Positions 8,401-41,562 of a stretch of 64,000 nt of DNA are shown piece by piece (positions within the stretch are counted from its first letter, which is position 1; every line of letters begins with the position of its first letter). The DNA comes from an uncultured Eudoraea sp. (GTDB lineage: Bacteria > Bacteroidota > Bacteroidia > Flavobacteriales > Flavobacteriaceae), in assembly GCF_947490415.1 (NCBI RefSeq), contig NZ_CANLGX010000001.1, positions 744,001 through 808,000 of the forward strand, in the 5' to 3' direction. A program made the translations under genes and the position numbers. Under the pieces are notes generated by a model. That model saw only the letters and a list, made by a program, of their open reading frames with translations, made no database searches and had not been told where the DNA came from.

Positions 8401-8503
8401 AATGATACTATACCAATACAAAATGCTTTCCGAAGATGAGCAGTACGACACTGCATTCTCTAAAGACAGGTTCTTGGAAATAGTAATCGGTTTGAAACTT
8501 TAA
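8401..8503 (+). pseudogene. truncated copy of small MTLYEYK(M/I)LxEDEQYDT family
   Basis: MILYQYKMLSEDEQYDTAFSKDRFLEIVIGLKL*; compare 20480-20653 (-) and 10171-10312. Confidence 0.6.
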
Positions 8504-10164: not shown

Positions 10165-10170
10165 TTCATA

Positions 10171-10311
10171 ATGACTCTCTACGAATACAAAATGCTTTCC
10201 GAAGATGAGCAGTACGATACTGTATTCTCTAAAGGCAAGTTCCTTGATATTGTTATAGAAGGCAATACTAAGTATGTCCTTTATGCTATAGATAATAATT
10301 CCTTACCTTAG
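10171..10311 (+). pseudogene. truncated MTLYEYK family gene running into DUF6090 promoter block
   Basis: MTLYEYKMLSEDEQYDTVFSKGKFLDIVIEGNTKYVLYAIDNNSLP*: the last residues are encoded by the TAATAATTCCTTACC promoter block. Confidence 0.65.
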
Positions 10312-10337: not shown

Positions 10338-11078
10338 ATGATAAAATTCTTTCGGAAAATTAGACAAAATTTGATTTCGGAAGGAAAGAATGGAAAGTAC
10401 TTTAAATACGCCATTGGAGAAATTGTCCTCGTCGTTATTGGGATTCTAATCGCATTAAGCATAAACAATTGGAATGAGGAACGTAAAGCAACAAAAAGAG
10501 AAAAGTTATTCCTAAAAGAATTCAAAACATCAATAAATAGAGATCTTTTTAATTTCGATAAACAATATGGCCCTCGTCTTGAAAGGAAAAAAAAGGGACT
10601 GGACAGTCTTTTTCATTATATACAATACGGCAATGATATTCATAATTCTCTTTTTATAAAATTTTATAATAATATGCGTCAAAGCATCAGGTTAGGACAT
10701 GATAGTGGACCTTATGAAGCACTAAAATCTTCGGGATTGGATTATATAAGAAACGATTCATTAAGAACAGCCATCAATAGAACTTATACCTTGCTACCCT
10801 TCTTTCAATATTTTTCACATCAAATAGATGCTGAAAATAATCCTAGGATATCTGAATTAGAGTATAAAATCTTAAATCTCAAGACCTTTGAACCACAAGA
10901 TGATAGAAAGTATCTTGAACTTGTTGTCAAAGTAGATAAAATTATCGCCAATCAAGATTTTCTTTGGATTTATAATTTGGAACAACAAAAATATAACAGT
11001 TATATATTTCGCTTGGGGACGATGAAAGCTGCCTTGAATGAGTTAAAAACTCAGATTGAAAAAGAGTTAAAAAAATAA
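10338..11078 (+). CDS. DUF6090-like membrane protein
   Basis: MIKFFRKIRQNLISEGKNGKYFKYAIGEIVLVVIGILIALSINNWNEERK. Confidence 0.9.
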   Translation: MIKFFRKIRQNLISEGKNGKYFKYAIGEIVLVVIGILIALSINNWNEERKATKREKLFLKEFKTSINRDLFNFDKQYGPRLERKKKGLDSLFHYIQYGNDIHNSLFIKFYNNMRQSIRLGHDSGPYEALKSSGLDYIRNDSLRTAINRTYTLLPFFQYFSHQIDAENNPRISELEYKILNLKTFEPQDDRKYLELVVKVDKIIANQDFLWIYNLEQQKYNSYIFRLGTMKAALNELKTQIEKELKK

Positions 11079-11080
11079 CG

Positions 11081-11161
11081 AAAGCACAACAATGGCTATA
11101 AGTAATTGCTTGGTAAAGTGCTATCCCTTACAACTAATCATAACCGATACCATTAACTAAG
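11081..11161 (+). repeat. attC-like element
   Basis: AAAGCACAAC-AATGGCTATAAGTAATTGC ... CATAACCGATACC-ATTAACTAAG; near-identical to 17221-17299. Confidence 0.55.
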
Positions 11162-11280
11162 TTTCCTAGAAATCCTCTCCATCACCTCACTAATCCGCTT
11201 CTGAACTACCTTCCCATAATATTCTTGGGTTATCTTCATACTAGAATGCCCTAATAATTCACTTACTATTTCCATACTGC
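11155..11280 (-). pseudogene. tyrosine recombinase 3'-end remnant
   Basis: Antisense of ...SELLGHSSIKITQEYYGKVVQKRISEVMERIS; matches 3' end of 39742-40950. Confidence 0.85.
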
Positions 11281-12867: not shown

Positions 12868-12894
12868 TGATTAAGTTCATTAGAAGTAATAACC

Positions 12895-16127: not shown

Positions 16128-16177
16128 AAGGAAGTACAAACAATAAATATGTTATTTATAAAAATGCCAAAATAACC

Positions 16178-16316
16178 AAAGGCTAACAACTTGTATAATT
16201 CATTGCTTAGTCATTTAAGAGTCTCTCGAGGATTTTTGCCGAAATCTCAAACACTCCCCCCTTTTGTTAACTTAGTACGCAATCACAACGAAATCATACA
16301 CGAACAAGTTATCTAA
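16178..16316 (+). repeat. attC-like imperfect palindrome
   Basis: AAAGGCTAAC-AACTTGTATAATTCATTGC ... GCAATCACAACGAAATCATACACGAACAA-GTTATCTAAG. Confidence 0.6.
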
Positions 16317-16411
16317 GTTTTCTAGAAATCCTTTCCATCTCCACACTAACCCTTTTCTGCACAACTCTACCATAATACTCTTGAGTAATCTGAATACTAG
16401 AATGCCCTTAT
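16310..16411 (-). pseudogene. tyrosine recombinase 3'-end remnant
   Basis: TTTTCTAGAAATCCTTTCCATCTCCACACTAACCC...GAATGCCC, antisense of the integrase C-terminus. Confidence 0.8.
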
Positions 16412-16450
16412 AATTCCTTACCTTGGGAGGAACAACCAACCACCAACTAA

Positions 16451-17218
16451 ATGATAAAATTCTTCAGAAAAATTCGCTACGACCTTATGGAGAAAAACAA
16501 AACTGGAAAGTATTTGAAATATGCCATTGGGGAGATAATTTTGGTAGTGATCGGAATTCTTATTGCCCTTCAAATTAATAACTGGAATCAGCAACGTATT
16601 CAGAATAAAAATGAGCAACTGGCTTTAAAAAATTTGAAGCAAGATTTTGAGTATAATTATAGGACTTTGGATAGTATTTTAACCGAAACCAAAAATAATA
16701 TAGAAACGCAATTTCTTATTCTAAATCATACAGGTAATAAGCCAAATACCATGACAAGGGCTGACTTTAATGCCTCACTCAATGATTTAAATGATATAAA
16801 TGAATTTTATCAAAGAAATGGTTACTTGGATGATCTAGTTAACTCTGGAAACTTGGGAATTATTCAAAATCAAAATTTAAGAAATAAGTTGTCTTCTTGG
16901 AATCCGGTATTTGATTTCATCAAATCTCGCGAAAAAGAACTCGAGACTGCAAGAGATAGATTAACTCTTATGATAATAGAAAAAGGCAGTTGGTTAAATG
17001 CCGATGCTGTTTCGACAGCTCAAACTGTTAAAGATAATACATTCCCAAATTCTGGTTTTGATATTGATAATAGAAATCTATTAGATGAACTTGCCTTTGA
17101 AAACAATACAGAGAACATTATTTATCAAAATGACAAGCTAACACGAAGCCATGAAAAGGGTTTATCATTAATTGCTCAAATTCTAGAATTATTCGATAAG
17201 GAAATTATAAAGGAATAA
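16451..17218 (+). CDS. DUF6090-like membrane protein
   Basis: MIKFFRKIRYDLMEKNKTGKYLKYAIGEIILVVIGILIALQINNWN. Confidence 0.9.
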   Translation: MIKFFRKIRYDLMEKNKTGKYLKYAIGEIILVVIGILIALQINNWNQQRIQNKNEQLALKNLKQDFEYNYRTLDSILTETKNNIETQFLILNHTGNKPNTMTRADFNASLNDLNDINEFYQRNGYLDDLVNSGNLGIIQNQNLRNKLSSWNPVFDFIKSREKELETARDRLTLMIIEKGSWLNADAVSTAQTVKDNTFPNSGFDIDNRNLLDELAFENNTENIIYQNDKLTRSHEKGLSLIAQILELFDKEIIKE

Positions 17219-17220
17219 CG

Positions 17221-17299
17221 AAAGCACAACAATGGCTATAAGTAATTGCTTGGTAAAGTGCTATCCCTTACTACTAATCATAACCGACCATTAACTAAG
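17221..17299 (+). repeat. attC-like element
   Basis: AAAGCACAAC-AATGGCTATAAGTAATTGC ... CATAACCGACC-ATTAACTAAG. Confidence 0.55.
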
Positions 17300-17393
17300 T
17301 TTCCTAGAAATCCTCTCCATCACCTCACTAACCCTCTTGTGAACTACCTTGCCATAATACTCCTGGGTAATCTAGATGCCAGAACACTCTAAC
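17291..17393 (-). pseudogene. tyrosine recombinase 3'-end remnant
   Basis: TTAACTAAGTTTCCTAGAAATCCTCTCCATCACCTCACTAACCC... Confidence 0.8.
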
Positions 17394-17448
17394 ATTTACC
17401 TTCAAATCAATTATTTTAATAAATTAGTAGAAACAACCACTACCGCAC

Positions 17449-18249
17449 ATGATCAACTTCTTTAGACGGATACGCAAAAAACTCGCAGACGACAACAAGC
17501 CTTTAAAATACATGAGGTATGCTATTGGGGAGATTGTATTGGTGGTAATTGGGATACTGATTGCCTTGCAGATAAATAATTGGAATGAAAACCGCCAGAT
17601 TCAAAATCAGGTTAATCTGCAATTAAAAAATTTGAAAACTGCAATTCAATCTGATATTGAATCACATGACAGGGTTCTTGGGATGGAAGGGTTTAGATTT
17701 CATGCCATTAAGTATATATTAGAAATGGCTGGTGAAACAGTTAGATTATATGATTACCACTATGATGAATTTCCTAACCAACCGCGGATTTTGTGGAAAA
17801 AACCTATTCCTAAGGGTTGGGATAAAGCATATTTTGATGCATGTTTTTCAGCGATCGATTTGGGCACAGTAGGGTCGTTTATAAATGATAAAGCCATTAT
17901 AGAATTTGGTAATTCGGGTCTGTATTCTGCTTTGAATAACCCACAATTAAAATCGATAATTAACGAATACTATCTTAATGCAGAAATGTGGTTTTCTGGC
18001 ATATTGTGGGATAATAATCTAGAAATAACAATGAAAACTAAAGATTTATTAGAGAATCAGTATCTGATTGATCTTAGAAGGATGAGTGATATAGAAGATC
18101 CTATTAGACTTATTAGAGAAAACAAACTTATTATAATCAGGTTAAATACCTTATTAGATAAGGTTTCTTTGACTTGTGAAACACTTGTTAATAGCCGGAA
18201 AAGGGCTGAACAGGTCATGTTGGCAATAGATCAGGAATTAAAAGAATAA
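17449..18249 (+). CDS. DUF6090-like membrane protein
   Basis: MINFFRRIRKKLADDNKPLKYMRYAIGEIVLVVIGILIALQINNWNENR. Confidence 0.9.
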   Translation: MINFFRRIRKKLADDNKPLKYMRYAIGEIVLVVIGILIALQINNWNENRQIQNQVNLQLKNLKTAIQSDIESHDRVLGMEGFRFHAIKYILEMAGETVRLYDYHYDEFPNQPRILWKKPIPKGWDKAYFDACFSAIDLGTVGSFINDKAIIEFGNSGLYSALNNPQLKSIINEYYLNAEMWFSGILWDNNLEITMKTKDLLENQYLIDLRRMSDIEDPIRLIRENKLIIIRLNTLLDKVSLTCETLVNSRKRAEQVMLAIDQELKE

Positions 18250-18250
18250 C

Positions 18251-18388
18251 GATTGTGCAACAATGGCTATAATTCATTGTGGCATTATTCAAAAAACAAA
18301 AATAGAAACCACCAAACGGCCTGATTTCATAAGTGGAAAAGTCTACTACGTTTCCCACAACGAAATCATAGCCTGGGCGTTATGCACA
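18251..18388 (+). repeat. attC-like imperfect palindrome
   Basis: GATTGTGCAAC-AATGGCTATAATTCATTG ... CAACGAAATCATAGCCTGGGC-GTTATGCACAATT. Confidence 0.65.
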
Positions 18389-18438
18389 ATTAGATGTAAC
18401 AAATCAACCTACAAACAGTCATACTATAAAGTGATGTT

Positions 18439-19242: not shown

Positions 19243-19276
19243 ACGGCATTAAAACGACCGTTTATTCAAAACGTTA
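19222..19276 (+). repeat. compact attC-like site
   Basis: GTGCAAAAC ... AATAAACGG-CATTAAAACGA-CCGTTTATT-CAAAAC-GTTAG; R'' overlaps the end of the CDS. Confidence 0.5.
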
Positions 19277-19365
19277 GTTGGAAATCTTCTTCATCTCCTC
19301 ACTTATCCTCTTCTGAACTATCTTCCCATAATACTCCTGAGTAATTATTATGCTTGAATGCCATA
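19273..19365 (-). pseudogene. tyrosine recombinase 3'-end remnant
   Basis: GTTAGTTGGAAATCTTCTTCATCTCCTCACTTATCCTCTTCTGAAC... Confidence 0.8.
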
Positions 19366-19420
19366 ACATTTCCCATCAAATCAATTATTTAAGTAAATTA
19401 GTAGGAACAACCACTAACTT

Positions 19421-20206: not shown

Positions 20207-20316
20207 CATGAATACACGATAAAAAGAATTAAAGTGCTTCTGGTAGCGATTGAGAGGTCATAGACAAATTTTTATTCCCGCTCACTTATCCTCTAATCCC
20301 GTTGTGGAACTTTAGT

Positions 20317-20440
20317 TTCTAAGAAATCCTTTCCCTCTCCTCACCCACTCTTTTCTGAACAACCTTACCATAATATTCCTGGGTGATTTTAATACTTGAA
20401 TGTCCTAAAAACTGAACTAAATCTCCTTTGGCACATTGCT
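20317..20440 (-). pseudogene. tyrosine recombinase 3'-end remnant
   Basis: TTTCTAAGAAATCCTTTCCCTCTCCTCACCCACTCTTTTCTGAAC... Confidence 0.8.
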
Positions 20441-20479
20441 ATACTTATCCAGGCAATGTCCTTCTTTAAACTGTCCTTA

Positions 20480-20653
20480 GCCTATGATCTCATCCTGTTC
20501 TATATCCCAAATAACCTCAACAAAAAACTTATCCAAGGCATATAGGACAAACTTAGATTTACCTTCTATAACAATATCAAGGAACCTACCTTTGGCAAAT
20601 ACAGTGTCATACTGCTCATCCTCTGTTAGTATTTTGTATTCATAGAGAGTCAT
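20480..20653 (-). CDS. small conserved protein
   Basis: MTLYEYKILTEDEQYDTVFAKGRFLDIVIEGKSKFVLYALDKFFVEVIWDIEQDEIIG*; truncated copies at 8401 and 10171. Confidence 0.7.
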
Positions 20654-26766: not shown

Positions 26767-26825
26767 TATTTCTAACATTGTATAACCTGCATTAAAAACC
26801 AGGTTATACTAAACATTAACTAAAT
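26767..26825 (+). repeat. compact attC-like site
   Basis: TATTTCTAAC-ATTGTATAACCTG-CATTAAAAAC-CAGGTTATACTAAAC-ATTAACTAA. Confidence 0.6.
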
Positions 26826-26989
26826 TTTTTTTGAAATCCTTTCCATCTCCTCGCTAACCCTCTTCTGAACAATCTTCCCTTGGTGCTTTTGGGTAATTTA
26901 ATACTTAAAAGTCCTGACAATTCACTTACTATCTCCATTGTAACGCCCATATAAAGCAACATAATGGACGAAATGGTATATCTGCCATA
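26815..26989 (-). pseudogene. tyrosine recombinase 3'-end remnant
   Basis: ATTAACTAAATTTTTTTTGAAATCCTTTCCATCTCCTCGCTAACCC...CTTACTATCTCCATTGTAACGCCC. Confidence 0.8.
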
Positions 26990-27036
26990 TTTAATAATTC
27001 CTTATCTTAGGAAGAACAACTAACCGCTTCCTTATA

Positions 27037-29241
27037 ATGATCAATTTCTATCGTAAAATCCGTAAGACACGTGCAGACGAGAACAAAGCTTTAAAATACA
27101 TAAGACACCTAATTACAAATAGGCTTCTATTAAACCTAGTTTGGGGCTTCCTCTTTGTGATACTCTCGGGCTGTAATCAAAGTTATGACAAAGGATCCGT
27201 TGAACATATAAAAGCGGTTACCCATGCAGTAGACTATGACCGGTTACTAAATGCAGACAAAACCCCGGAGGATTGGCTCTCTTATGGCAGAAACTACAGT
27301 GAAGACCGCTTTAGTCCATTAACTCAGATTACGAAATTAAACATAGACAGTCTGGGCTTGGCCTGGACTTTAAATCTTGGCACTACCAAAGGGTTTGAAG
27401 CAACACCTTTGGTGGTAGATGGCATAATGTATGTAAGTGGCCCGTGGAGCATTGTATATGCTGTTGATGTCAGAAAAGGAGAACTTATCTGGACTTATGA
27501 TCCCAAAGTGCCCGGCAAATATGGGGAAATAGCCTGTTGTGATGTAGTTAATCGCGGGGTGGCACTGTATAAAGGCCTTGTTTATGTAGGAACATTAGAT
27601 GGCAGGTTAGTTGCCATTAATGCCGTAACCGGTGAAAAGACCTGGGAGGTTTTAACTGTAGATCAAAGTGAAAGTTATACCATTACCGGTGCACCAAGGG
27701 TGTTTGATGGAAAAGTAATCATTGGCAATAGTGGTGCTGAATATGGTGTCAGGGGTTATGTCACAGCCTATGATGCCTTAACAGGCCAACAAAGCTGGAG
27801 GTTTTACACCGTACCCGGAAATCCTGCAAATGGCTTTGAAAATGAAGCAATGCGCAAAGCCGCAGAAACATGGAGCGGTAAGTGGTGGGAATCCGGTGGT
27901 GGTGGAACTGCCTGGGATGCCTATGCCTATGATCCGGAACTCAAGTTAATTTATGTGGGAGTTGGGAATGGCACTTTATGGAATCAGTCATTAAGAAGTC
28001 CTCAGGGAGGTGATAACCTTTATCTTTCTTCCGTTGTTGCTCTTAATTCTGACGATGGAAGTCTGGAGTGGTATTATCAGACTACTCCCGGGGATAACTG
28101 GGACTATACAGCCACACAACACATGATCCTTGCGGAAATTGAGTTCAACAATCAACCCAGGAAGGTTTTGATGCAAGCGCCCAAAAATGGTTTCTTCTAT
28201 GTACTGGATCGCACCGATGGAACCTTAATTTCTGCAGACCCCTATGTTTATACCAATTGGGCAAGCCATGTTGATATGGAAACTGGACGCCCTGTAGAAA
28301 CCGATTACGGGAGATACAAAGAAGTTAATGCCCAGATATTTCCCGGCCCGGCCGGCGGGCATAACTGGCAGCCTATGGCGTACAATCCGGTTACGAATTT
28401 GGTTTACATTCCGGCTAGGGATCTGTCCATGATTTATGGTCAACCATTAAATTGGGAATACAAGGAAGATATCCGAACCTTCAATATTGCCCTTGGCGGA
28501 AATAAAAATGCCATTACCCGTATGGATTCCCTGGCTCCGGATGAAAAAGGGATGTTGATTGCATGGGATCCGATTAAGAAAAAAGAAGTATGGAAGGTAC
28601 CACATAAATCTACCTGGAATGCCGGAGTCCTGAGCCTGGAAGATCTTGTATTTCAGGGAAATGCGGAAGGTTTCCTGGTTGCCTATGACGCAACAGACGG
28701 AACAGAGGAATGGCGTTTCAATGTGGGTTCAGGGGTTGTCGCTTCACCCATCTCTTATATGGTAGACGGCATACAATATATTACCATAATATCTGGCTGG
28801 GGTGGCGTTCTTGGCAGGTATGTACGATTTACTGATCAGCTATATCCCGGCACTATATATACCTTTGCATTAGGCAAAAATGAAGCTGCTCCTGTATACC
28901 CAACCATTAAAAAGGAATTAATTGATCTGGAGGTTACAGCTTCTATGGACAATATAGAACATGGGAAGCTGGTTTTTAACCAATATTGCAACCGGTGTCA
29001 TGGCCCGCCTGGAAGTGGTGGGGGTGCTTATCCGGATATTGCGTATTCAGAAAGAGCAATATTTGGGATGTTTTCCCAAATTGTGGGAGAAGGAGCATTT
29101 CTTACCAAGGGCATGCCTAATTTTGGGGATCGGTTAGATGAAAGTCAGATAACTAATGTTAGGAACTATATCATCCATGCCGCCAAGGTTTTAAGAAATG
29201 GTAAAAAGGAGGAGGATGAAACGGTGCGCAACAATCACTAA
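27037..29241 (+). CDS. PQQ-dependent dehydrogenase (quinoprotein) with C-terminal cytochrome c domain, N-terminus fused to DUF6090 leader
   Basis: PQQ repeats (GDNWDYTATQHMIL, GVLSLEDLVFQGNAEGFLVAYDA), CNRCH heme motif; first ~25 aa MINFYRKIRKTRADENKALKYIRH match the DUF6090 leader, then lipobox WGFLFVILSGCNQS. Confidence 0.9.
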   Translation: MINFYRKIRKTRADENKALKYIRHLITNRLLLNLVWGFLFVILSGCNQSYDKGSVEHIKAVTHAVDYDRLLNADKTPEDWLSYGRNYSEDRFSPLTQITKLNIDSLGLAWTLNLGTTKGFEATPLVVDGIMYVSGPWSIVYAVDVRKGELIWTYDPKVPGKYGEIACCDVVNRGVALYKGLVYVGTLDGRLVAINAVTGEKTWEVLTVDQSESYTITGAPRVFDGKVIIGNSGAEYGVRGYVTAYDALTGQQSWRFYTVPGNPANGFENEAMRKAAETWSGKWWESGGGGTAWDAYAYDPELKLIYVGVGNGTLWNQSLRSPQGGDNLYLSSVVALNSDDGSLEWYYQTTPGDNWDYTATQHMILAEIEFNNQPRKVLMQAPKNGFFYVLDRTDGTLISADPYVYTNWASHVDMETGRPVETDYGRYKEVNAQIFPGPAGGHNWQPMAYNPVTNLVYIPARDLSMIYGQPLNWEYKEDIRTFNIALGGNKNAITRMDSLAPDEKGMLIAWDPIKKKEVWKVPHKSTWNAGVLSLEDLVFQGNAEGFLVAYDATDGTEEWRFNVGSGVVASPISYMVDGIQYITIISGWGGVLGRYVRFTDQLYPGTIYTFALGKNEAAPVYPTIKKELIDLEVTASMDNIEHGKLVFNQYCNRCHGPPGSGGGAYPDIAYSERAIFGMFSQIVGEGAFLTKGMPNFGDRLDESQITNVRNYIIHAAKVLRNGKKEEDETVRNNH

Positions 29242-33028: not shown

Positions 33029-33199
33029 TAAAGTTATTTAAAATCCTTAAATTTGAAGTGGTATCAGGAACGCAAATAAGCGTACCAACCGAGCACAAAA
33101 GCCACGGTGGTTCAGAATACGGACAGTTCAGTCAAAATAAATGATTATTCACCGTTTATTATTCCCTTCCTGATGCATTAACTTTTAAAATAATGTATT

Positions 33200-36547: not shown

Positions 36548-36766
36548 TTAACTCTGTCTCTGAATTTTTATTTCATTCTTTATTGAATCTGTATTAATAC
36601 ATTTCTTCGCTATCCTCCCCATCTCCTCACTAAGCCTCTTCTGCACAACTTTACCATAATACTCTTGGGTAATTTTAATGCTTGAATGACCTAATAGATC
36701 ACTGACTATCTCCATTGGAACATCATTATAAAGCATTACAGTAGATGCATATGTCTTTCTAGCCAT
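36548..36766 (-). pseudogene. tyrosine recombinase 3'-end remnant (MARKTY... to C-terminus)
   Basis: MARKTYASTVMLYNDVPMEIVSDLLGHSSIKITQEYYGKVVQKRLSEEMGRIAKK, near-identical to end of 39742-40950. Confidence 0.9.
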
Positions 36767-36811: not shown

Positions 36812-37576
36812 ATGATAAAATTCTTTAGAAAAATCAGACAAAAAATGCTGACTGAAAACAAGTTCAGTAAATACCTACTTTATGCCATCGGAGAAATTGT
36901 ACTTGTCGTTATTGGAATTTTGATTGCCCTTCAAATAAATAATTGGAATGAGAAGAGGAAGATTCAAAGTTTGGAATTTCAATTTTTAAACAGACTAAAA
37001 TCAGACCTGGTTATTGATACCACATATTTTAACAGACGCATTCACGACTCTGAGGAACTTGTGCAATCCCATACTAAATTTATTATCGAAATGCATAAAG
37101 AACAGGAAAATTTGAAGGAAGTGCAAGACCTGTTTAAATTGTTTAGAATGAATTCTGAGCTACTAACGACCCAAAACTCCGCTTTTATTGAATTGATTAG
37201 TTCAGGCAAACTGGATGTAATTAGTAATGTAGTTTTAAAAAATGATTTGATCATGTATTATGGCGAAATTGAAAGGGCTGTAAAACATATTCAGGAATTC
37301 AACGAGTTTTCTGTTGAAGTACTTCTTAATATGTATCGAAATACTCCCTATACTGTTAGAGTATTTCCCGAGAACGACTTTTACGTAAGACATGATTTCA
37401 ATTCGCATGGAGAATGGGATTTTATTAATGATCCGTATTCACCCAAATTTCAATCCCTTGAATTAGATGTATCAACTTACATGGCGAAGCATCAGGTTTT
37501 CCTGGGGTATTTTAATGACTTAAAAAACAGATCATCCGACTTGATTGAGGTCATTGAGGAAGAGATAGAGAATTAA
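36812..37576 (+). CDS. DUF6090-like membrane protein
   Basis: MIKFFRKIRQKMLTENKFSKYLLYAIGEIVLVVIGILIALQINNWNEKRK. Confidence 0.9.
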   Translation: MIKFFRKIRQKMLTENKFSKYLLYAIGEIVLVVIGILIALQINNWNEKRKIQSLEFQFLNRLKSDLVIDTTYFNRRIHDSEELVQSHTKFIIEMHKEQENLKEVQDLFKLFRMNSELLTTQNSAFIELISSGKLDVISNVVLKNDLIMYYGEIERAVKHIQEFNEFSVEVLLNMYRNTPYTVRVFPENDFYVRHDFNSHGEWDFINDPYSPKFQSLELDVSTYMAKHQVFLGYFNDLKNRSSDLIEVIEEEIEN

Positions 37577-39741: not shown

Positions 39742-40950
39742 TCACTTTTGAATCTTGCTAGCTATCCTCCTCATCTCCTCACTAATCCTCTTTTGAACAA
39801 TCTTTCCGTAATACTGCTGGGTAATCTTAATGCTAGAATGCCCTAACAACTCACTCACTATTTCCATAGGAACATCATTATAAAGGAGCACAGTTGAGGC
39901 AAATGTCTTTCTTGCCATGTGGTGGCTAATGGCTTTATTAATGCCTACAATTTCTGCTATTTCCTTTAGATAGGAATTGATCTTTTGATTGCTGAATTTA
40001 GGAAGTGCCAAGTTGCCAACTTCTTTGTAATAATCTACTATGGCCTTTGCCTTGGGCAATAAGGGTACAGATATCATCTTGCCTGTTTTCTGCCTTTTCA
40101 TTTGGATCCATTCATTCCCATCAAAACCTTTAATGATATGCTCCTTTTTTAGATTTGCCATTTCGTTGTATGCCAAGCCCGTATAACAACAAAATATAAA
40201 TAGGTCTTTGACCAGCTGTAGCCTTGGTTGCGAAAAATGATGCTTTTCAAGCTTTTCTAGCTCGTCCTTGGTAAGGAAAACAACGGTTTTTCTGACCCTT
40301 CCTGGTTTGTGTAATACAAATGGGTCCTTTTCCAGGTATCCCTCGCCTAGAGCCTCCTTAATGGGTTTCCTGAAGCGCTGGATGCACTTATTTATGGTTA
40401 CCTGGCTTTGGTTCCTTTCTATTTTTAAATAATATTCAAAATCATGTAGGAACTGGAGCTTTAGTTTACTCAAAGGAAAGTCATGTTTGCAATATTTCCA
40501 TTTAATGAAATCTTGTACTTGAGAGTAGGCATAGTTAAACTTCTTCCATGTGGCTAGCTGAATATCTATCCCAATTAGTTTTTTCTTCTTGTCCAAAAAT
40601 TCCTTGAAATATTCAATTGTTCCAACATCCTTAGCAGTTGGTTTTCCAATGTAGTTGTTAAAAATATCCTCAACTGAAAATTCATCGCCCGCTAATTGTA
40701 ACTGTAAATATGTTCTGCTTATCTCGGCAGTTATAATTTCTAACTGCCGGTTAATCTGACTTCCTCTATTCGATATAGAGATAGCCTTTTGTTGTTTGGA
40801 GTTCCATTCCTTTGGATTAATAAATAAACCTGTTGCAAAAGGTTTTCTTATACCATTTAGGGTTAATCTACATGAAATAGGGCATAAGCCCCTTTTATTC
40901 GTTTTTGCAATACTGATTACATAACGAATGGATAATTTTTGCTTACTCAT
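39742..40950 (-). CDS. tyrosine-type site-specific recombinase (Bacteroidota mobile-element integrase type)
   Basis: N-terminal arm-binding-like region, FCCYTGLAYNEM, HHMARKTFAS, LLGHSSIKITQQYYGK. Confidence 0.93.
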   Translation of the reverse strand: MSKQKLSIRYVISIAKTNKRGLCPISCRLTLNGIRKPFATGLFINPKEWNSKQQKAISISNRGSQINRQLEIITAEISRTYLQLQLAGDEFSVEDIFNNYIGKPTAKDVGTIEYFKEFLDKKKKLIGIDIQLATWKKFNYAYSQVQDFIKWKYCKHDFPLSKLKLQFLHDFEYYLKIERNQSQVTINKCIQRFRKPIKEALGEGYLEKDPFVLHKPGRVRKTVVFLTKDELEKLEKHHFSQPRLQLVKDLFIFCCYTGLAYNEMANLKKEHIIKGFDGNEWIQMKRQKTGKMISVPLLPKAKAIVDYYKEVGNLALPKFSNQKINSYLKEIAEIVGINKAISHHMARKTFASTVLLYNDVPMEIVSELLGHSSIKITQQYYGKIVQKRISEEMRRIASKIQK

Positions 40951-41174
40951 AACCAATTGATTTTAATGTTAAACAATTGGCATACAATTCTGGAAATGGG
41001 AACCTTTTTTTAAAAGTGGGAACCGAATAGGTACCCTTTTTTTACCTAAAAACTTGACAAGTTGACTTTTAGATGGAAAGTGCAGTCAGTGCTTATAATG
41101 CGGTTATGCGCTGTAAATCAACACTTTAAACCAAAAAATCCAATCTAAATAAATAGACTGGATTTCTTTATAAG

Positions 41175-41248
41175 TGGTCCCACCTGGGCTCGAACCAGGG
41201 ACCCCCTGATTATGAGTCAGGTGCTCTAACCAGCTGAGCTATAGGACC
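41175..41248 (-). tRNA. tRNA with CAT anticodon (Met or Ile2)
   Basis: Reverse complement GGTCCTATAGCTCAGCTGGTTAGAGCACCTGACTCATAATCAGGGGGTCCCTGGTTCGAGCCCAGGTGGGACCA; complete cloverleaf. Confidence 0.95.
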
Positions 41249-41300: not shown

Positions 41301-41499
41301 TGAAGTATCTGAGGTTACTTCGGGATAGGACCGGTCAATACCAAATTTTGGACTGCAATATTACTATTTATTTTACTATGCTGCAACTTCTTTGTAGGTA
41401 GAAAACCTGCTGAGTCACACATACACCTTCCCTTCATGAAGGCGACTCTAATTTCGATAAACCGTAATTAAATTCCAAATCTCAAAATCAATGTTACAA

Positions 41500-41562
41500 T
41501 TATGAGTCAGGTGCTCCCTGTCTGCCTTGCCTTCAGGCAGGTAGATAACCAGCTGAGCTACC
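41500..41562 (-). pseudogene. tRNA(CAT) fragment interrupted by a palindromic insertion
   Basis: Reverse complement TAGCTCAGCTGGTTA-[TCTACCTGCCTGAAGGCAAGGCAGACAGG]-GAGCACCTGACTCATAAT. Confidence 0.75.

Follow-up and report, generated by a model that had tools for sequence, protein, structure and literature searches.

A candidate integron-type platform in Flavobacteriaceae and DUF6090 units joined to tRNA-type integrase tails in an attC-like array

Our analysis of a 64,000-nucleotide stretch (hereafter the window) belonging to the 3.9 Mb genome of an uncultured Eudoraea sp. points to a widespread candidate integron-type platform of the Flavobacteriaceae, which represents our main result and lies outside the two DUF6090-encoding units from which the analysis departed. 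Judging from the sequences compared, it appears likely that in this platform a XerA-like integrase, with an N-terminal region of its own and without the IntI insertion, reads into an array of attC-bounded single-gene cassettes, that DUF6090 membrane proteins are a recurrent cargo, and that the window represents an integrase-less, decaying branch in which promoters were gained through fusion to integrase relics. For the units themselves, we hold it to be fairly probable that they are cassettes in which an integrase relic and a promoter-like leader took the place of the original 5' end, and which lie in an array devoid of its integrase.

Both units (16308–17230 and 17290–18261) show the same order, namely an R'-like end, an antisense recombinase 3' tail, a leader, a DUF6090 gene and an R''-like end (Table 1), bearing out the anatomy given in a preliminary description of this DNA. 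In unit 1, GTTATCTAAG at 16308 continues straight into the reverse-strand tail, whose translation ends with GHSSIQITQEYYGRVVQKRVSVEMERISRKLR and a stop, followed by the leader ATAATTCCTTACCTTGGGAGGAACAACC, the DUF6090 gene (16451–17218) and ACGAAAGCACAACAATGGCTATAAGTAATTGC. Unit 2 starts with ATTAACTAAG at 17290 and runs through tail, leader and DUF6090 gene (17449–18249) to AACGATTGTGCAACAATGGCTATAATTCATTG. The two genes score 32.2 and 35.7 bits against PF19578, for which the curated Pfam cut-off is 23.5 bits. The -7 promoter element of Bacteroidota has the consensus TAnnTTTG, and on this basis the leader box may be regarded as promoter-like. A SAM-I/IV riboswitch (Rfam RF01725) is encoded at 33056–33149, inside a DUF6090-rich stretch of the window.

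Table 1. Features of the two units and of related elements, in window positions
Feature	Position	Strand	Remarks
attC-like site, decayed	16170..16316	+	R'' GGCTAAC, TATAATTCATTGC...CAACGAAATCATACACGAACAAGTTATCT; R' end GTTATCT at 16308 touching tail
Tail of tRNA-type tyrosine recombinase, ~codons 367-402	16311..16411	-	blastn 75% to intact gene; one stop
Unit 1 leader, promoter-like TACCTTGG box	16408..16450	+	aligns to leader profile positions 175-215
DUF6090 gene, unit 1	16451..17218	+	PF19578 E=1.2e-7, above cut-off
Inter-unit attC-like site, decayed; R' end ATTAACT at 17290 touching tail	17212..17299	+	profile 5e-10
Recombinase 3' tail, degenerate	17293..17394	-	blastn 80%; in-frame stop
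Unit 2 leader AATTATTTTAATAAATTAGTAGAAACAACCACT	17395..17448	+	common to units at 19267 and 38770; profile 186-288
DUF6090 gene, unit 2	17449..18249	+	PF19578 E=9.6e-9
attC-like site, right end of unit 2, well preserved	18244..18394	+	bottom-strand fold z -3.1; profile 1e-5
Tail touching R' end ATTAACT	11155..11276	-	
Tail touching R' end CGTTAG	19267..19368	-	
Tail touching R' end ATTAACT; leader and DUF6090 start fused to PQQ-dehydrogenase ORF	26819..26988	-	
Best-preserved tail, codons 346-401, fused to leader of DUF6090 36812-37576	36595..36766	-	
Intact recombinase, 404 aa, family giving rise to tails	39742..40956	-	Arm-DNA-bind_5, Phage_int_SAM_5, Phage_integrase domains
tRNA-Met(CAT), ~220 bp upstream of intact recombinase	41174..41248	-	ARAGORN; Rfam tRNA

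With a left-half profile of the attC-like site, distinct from the published attC covariance model, we obtained nine matches in the window, all on one strand, and nine to ten in the window genome; the left half of the site at 16170–16316 was matched at 2e-4. The attC-like sites had no counterpart in Rfam. When compared to shuffled sequences, the sites at 12886 (z -4.2), 18246 (z -3.1) and 21345 (z -2.7) fold well, and those at 11076 (z +0.8) and 16170 (z +0.7) do no better than the shuffles. Since the site at 17216 is a near-copy of the poorly folding one at 11076 (96% identity to 11068–11147 over 80 bp), unit 1 has a decayed site at either end and unit 2 has one at its left end, so that two of the three sites at the units are decayed. 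Complementarity between left and right halves is moderate, exceeding the 95% level of shuffles in 20 of 57 sites. Across the family, the left-half motif was present in 43 of 251 genomes, with no hit in the reversed control.

The boundaries of DUF6090 genes elsewhere indicate what a regular cassette of this kind looks like. Our set comprised 46 DUF6090 starts, most of them from some 40 other genera, and in 38 of these loci the 5' end is located exactly at an R' core, G^TTGTGCTTCATTAT, behind 36 different left flanks; the 15 bases GTTGTGCTTCATTAT (at least 12 matching) directly precede the gene in 38 of the 46. Column information amounts to ~0.15 bits left of position -45 and to ~1 bit from -31 onward. 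Canonical genes mostly end with TAACGAAAGCACAACA..GGCTATAAGTAATTGC, carry the R'' box GCACAAC after the stop, and belong to cassettes starting at G^TTGTGC. GCACAAC and GTTGTGC are exact complements, as would be expected if the two ends of a cassette join upon circularisation, and this match is lost in the composite units (4/7 and 2/7 agreeing pairs by our count, versus 7/7 in canonical DUF6090 cassettes). By these boundaries, DUF6090 genes are cassette genes. Single-gene cassettes bounded by attC sites, as in integrons, are thereby found in about 40 genera, and three sites in the window fold well. The array of attC-like cassettes proposed in the preliminary description therefore stands, but not the tail and promoter as regular cassette parts, as the canonical DUF6090 cassettes contain neither. 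In the open-licence literature we found no paper on DUF6090 or on flavobacterial or Bacteroidetes attC arrays that describes this system, and both contexts of the DUF6090 5' end, with a canonical cassette start in one and an integrase-tail leader in the other, appear, with due reserve, to be new to that literature.

Cassette-bearing genomes often encode, in addition to XerC and XerD, a third tyrosine recombinase located just upstream of the arrays. This candidate array integrase (372–402 aa) resembles XerA and IntI4, carries ~100 extra N-terminal residues, in most cases terminates in a PLD motif as IntI does, and lacks an equivalent of IntI4 residues 213–246; in a small tree, the candidates cluster separately from XerC/XerD (support 87). 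Nine loci picked from cassette-bearing genomes contained 41 left-half profile matches, all of them downstream of the integrase and co-directional with it. The same holds for all 28 matches, from six loci, among 14 loci picked by the integrase alone, several of which reach the end of their contig just past the integrase and two of which had no match despite more than 4 kb of downstream sequence. In sum, 69 of 69 attC-like halves over 15 loci lie downstream of, and in the same direction as, the candidate integrase, and the same profile had no match in 80 tRNA-type integrase control loci (1.49 Mb) nor in reversed sequences. Such candidate integrases directly upstream of co-directional arrays occur in many Flavobacteriaceae, among them those encoded at L287:2006–3214, L288:12035–13219, L289:12047–13174, L291:3925–5118, L294:4205–5332, L295:3698–4828, L296:4324–5454 and L297:9550–10677.

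The candidate integrases score 183–209 bits with the integron-integrase model TIGR02249, below its 265-bit cut-off, and individual proteins match in two separate stretches at 1e-53 to 1e-61; they would probably escape standard integron searches. The family cannot be said to lack an integrase, as a TIGR02249 search at 1e-40 was empty across the 251 genomes but its control was equally silent. No intact array integrase was found in the window genome, where the only match (C1:56574–56969), covering 132 residues in a broken frame and far from the array, represents a C-terminal piece in a stop-containing frame of 137 aa, with 58% identity to the candidate array integrase. An IntI with the characteristic insertion was found beside the array neither in the window genome nor in the relatives. 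Given that the array integrase has apparently been lost in the window genome, the array would now change mainly through inheritance, duplication and recombination between repeats, and may well be immobile at present.

The tails derive from the C-terminal end of an Arm-DNA-bind_5-type integrase encoded next to a tRNA gene, of which they are relics, and this integrase stands outside the cassette system; such tRNA-associated integrases probably belong to the IntCTnDOT-like group. An 18 bp repeat (41499–41516) is found on the outer side of the tRNA-Met gene next to the intact recombinase of the window, and, in the window, only this intact gene combines the Arm-DNA-bind, SAM-like and catalytic domains with the tRNA neighbour of tRNA-type island integrases. 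By blastn, ~17 places in 160 kb match the intact gene, without any change of strand; those that are clearly partial copies derive solely from its last 60–240 bp. Of 80 loci of this integrase family from other genera and species, 59 have the integrase 187–266 bp from a tRNA gene (Asn, Met, Lys or Asp). Partial integrases (n = 40) were strictly C-terminal in 32 cases and N-terminal in one, most of the remaining seven also falling within the C-terminal third; these loci had partly been fetched with a C-terminal query, and those fetched with the whole gene showed the same bias in small numbers. Since four loci (G107, L149, L157 and L162) carry a single tail ~550–830 bp downstream of an intact integrase, with another gene in between, tails are scars of tRNA-type integrases generally and not a feature of DUF6090. 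Among closely related Flavobacterium tRNA-Asn integrases (L194, L196, L198, L203, L212, L215, L218, L220 and L222), the last 10–60 codons and the downstream flank alternate among a few types, the rest of the gene being 86–96% identical.

Within the window, all tails are antisense 3' ends of 60–240 bp with a varying right-hand edge. Tail junctions spread from codon 329 to codon 370. The best-preserved one (36595–36766) is 85% identical to the intact gene at the amino-acid and 82% at the nucleotide level and contains no stops. As amino-acid identity equals or exceeds nucleotide identity in the best-kept tails, these would have diverged while they were still functional integrases and only later have been truncated. 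That tails are copies of today's integrase is rejected (DNA only 65–82% identical, protein equal or higher in the best tails), and a conserved small gene is not supported, most tails containing stops or deletions. The tail tree, poorly resolved and weak at 78 columns, requires at least two origins, so that a single fusion as the source of all tails is not supported. At 26819–29241, tail, leader and the first ~23 DUF6090 codons are fused to a PQQ-dehydrogenase/cytochrome ORF (27037–29241). A small gene family, MTLYEYK(M/I)L(S/T)EDEQYDT..., has left decayed copies in the array at 20450–20650, 8401–8487 and 10170–10256, and one decayed copy of this family is joined end to end with the tail at 20309–20443.

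Tail, leader and DUF6090 share a common junction at codon 346/347 (between HH and MARKTF), followed by TATAATTATTCATTACCTTAGG, in several units of the window genome (G000), in G003 and G004, and in G061 from another genus, where the same tail-leader also precedes an unrelated repeat-containing gene. As this fusion is common to other Eudoraea species and another genus, it is largely inherited. About 9 of 55 DUF6090 genes in the window genome bear a clear tail; with a profile of the block, many of the tail-less ones align from the leader start (position ~175), and some retain 10–40 bp of tail. Most simply, these alignments would go back to one ancestral fusion, of which copies were made that subsequently eroded, while tail and gene would have come together at least once more from a separate origin.

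The preliminary description had taken tail, promoter and DUF6090 for a single promoter-carrying cassette, which would leave and enter the attC-like sites as a whole, a reading which we now regard as unlikely. Five of the ten tails of the window do touch an R' end, including those reported after 11078, 19242 and 26765, all three of which we recovered, and DUF6090 is itself a cassette gene. Three of the ten tails lie no more than 12 bp from any of the nine attC-like sites detected by profile. By position alone, we estimate that this would be expected about once per million, a figure which is no strict probability because the units are related by descent. In addition, a constant tail start (CTAAG-TTT..) follows differing left attC-like sequences in G000, G003, G004, G008 and G061, which is also what a composite inserting at R' would look like. 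However, the other five tails (~11906, 20309, 34810, 36595 and 38770) make no contact to an R' end, the sites flanking unit 1 are decayed, the R'' and 5' boxes of the composites are mismatched, and the genome contains no intact array integrase. At this point, a mimic of R' formed by the integrase stop codon, given that CTTAGATAAC on the opposite strand reads GTTATCTAAG, looks the same as a true R', which weighs against our preferred reading. The linkage expected in related genomes largely failed as well: tails occur without DUF6090 (G107, L149, L154, L157, L162 and 34810 in the window), and most DUF6090 genes have no tail. Were the composites mobile nonetheless, circular junctions would join TTATCTAAG to R'' ends.

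Serial accretion of islands at tRNA-Met, in which each newcomer leaves the 3' end of the previous integrase as a scar beside the incoming cargo and the cassette ends are coincidental, seems a little less likely still. It would account for the position of the integrase at 187–266 bp from a tRNA in most loci, for the single tail and one cargo gene found before an intact integrase in other genera, and for the resemblance of the tails to formerly functional genes, but on its own leaves unexplained why only the last 35–75 codons persist, why one junction is common across genera, and why five tails contact R'. Some phages restore the tRNA genes into which they insert by means of an incoming copy of the target end, the old end being left behind. 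That the integrase 3' end is itself such an insertion site, restored by the incoming DNA, is very improbable: nearly all remnants are C-terminal and located just downstream of intact integrases, and the last segment, the most conserved overall, is often the most divergent in close Flavobacterium relatives, but breakpoints in these relatives scatter over many codons, often at the stop, as expected from ordinary homologous recombination, and tail junctions vary as described above. Site-specific renewal of the 3' end was thus set aside, suggestive as the divergence is.

According to our preferred reading of replaced cassette starts, the array would represent the cassette part of an integron-type system of flavobacteria, into which the XerA-like co-directional integrase places cassettes in related genera. 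In an ancestor, the normal cassette start G^TTGTGCTTCATTAT would have given way to what remained of the 3' end of a tRNA-targeting island integrase, together with a short promoter-like leader. The fused block of antisense tail, leader, DUF6090 and attC-like end would then have been passed on and amplified within the array next to tRNA-Met, tails and attC-like sites decaying meanwhile. Composite units of this kind may be one way by which promoterless cassettes acquire a leader of their own.

Compared with known systems, both unit genes belong to DUF6090 (PF19578) by their scores above the Pfam cut-off. The recombinase at 39742–40956 shares the domain set and tRNA-adjacent position of tRNA-associated Arm-DNA-bind_5 island integrases, whereas the units hold only decayed 3' pieces in many copies. 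With integrons and CALINs (attC clusters without integrase), the arrays share single-gene cassettes, palindromic sites in R''/L''...L'/R' order, a crossover-like border G^TT, GCACAAC/GTTGTGC boxes that match in canonical cassettes and, in relatives, an adjoining tyrosine recombinase. In contrast to integrons, the integrase of the relatives has ~100 aa of extra N-terminal sequence, lacks the IntI insertion, scores below the TIGR02249 cut-off and faces the array with its 3' end, in the direction of the cassettes, and an intact array integrase is missing from the window genome. For Bacteroidetes proper, a survey made in 2022 with IntegronFinder 2.0 listed a single complete integron, that of Salinibacter ruber (PMC9024848). 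Judged against the open-licence literature, and with the corresponding reserve, the flavobacterial platform appears to be novel; if its arrays work, cassette capture would be common in marine flavobacteria and so far overlooked because the integrase falls under the usual integron-integrase score. As the IntI insertion has been described as essential to integron function (PMC8138268), an integrase without this insertion beside attC arrays offers a direct test of that rule.
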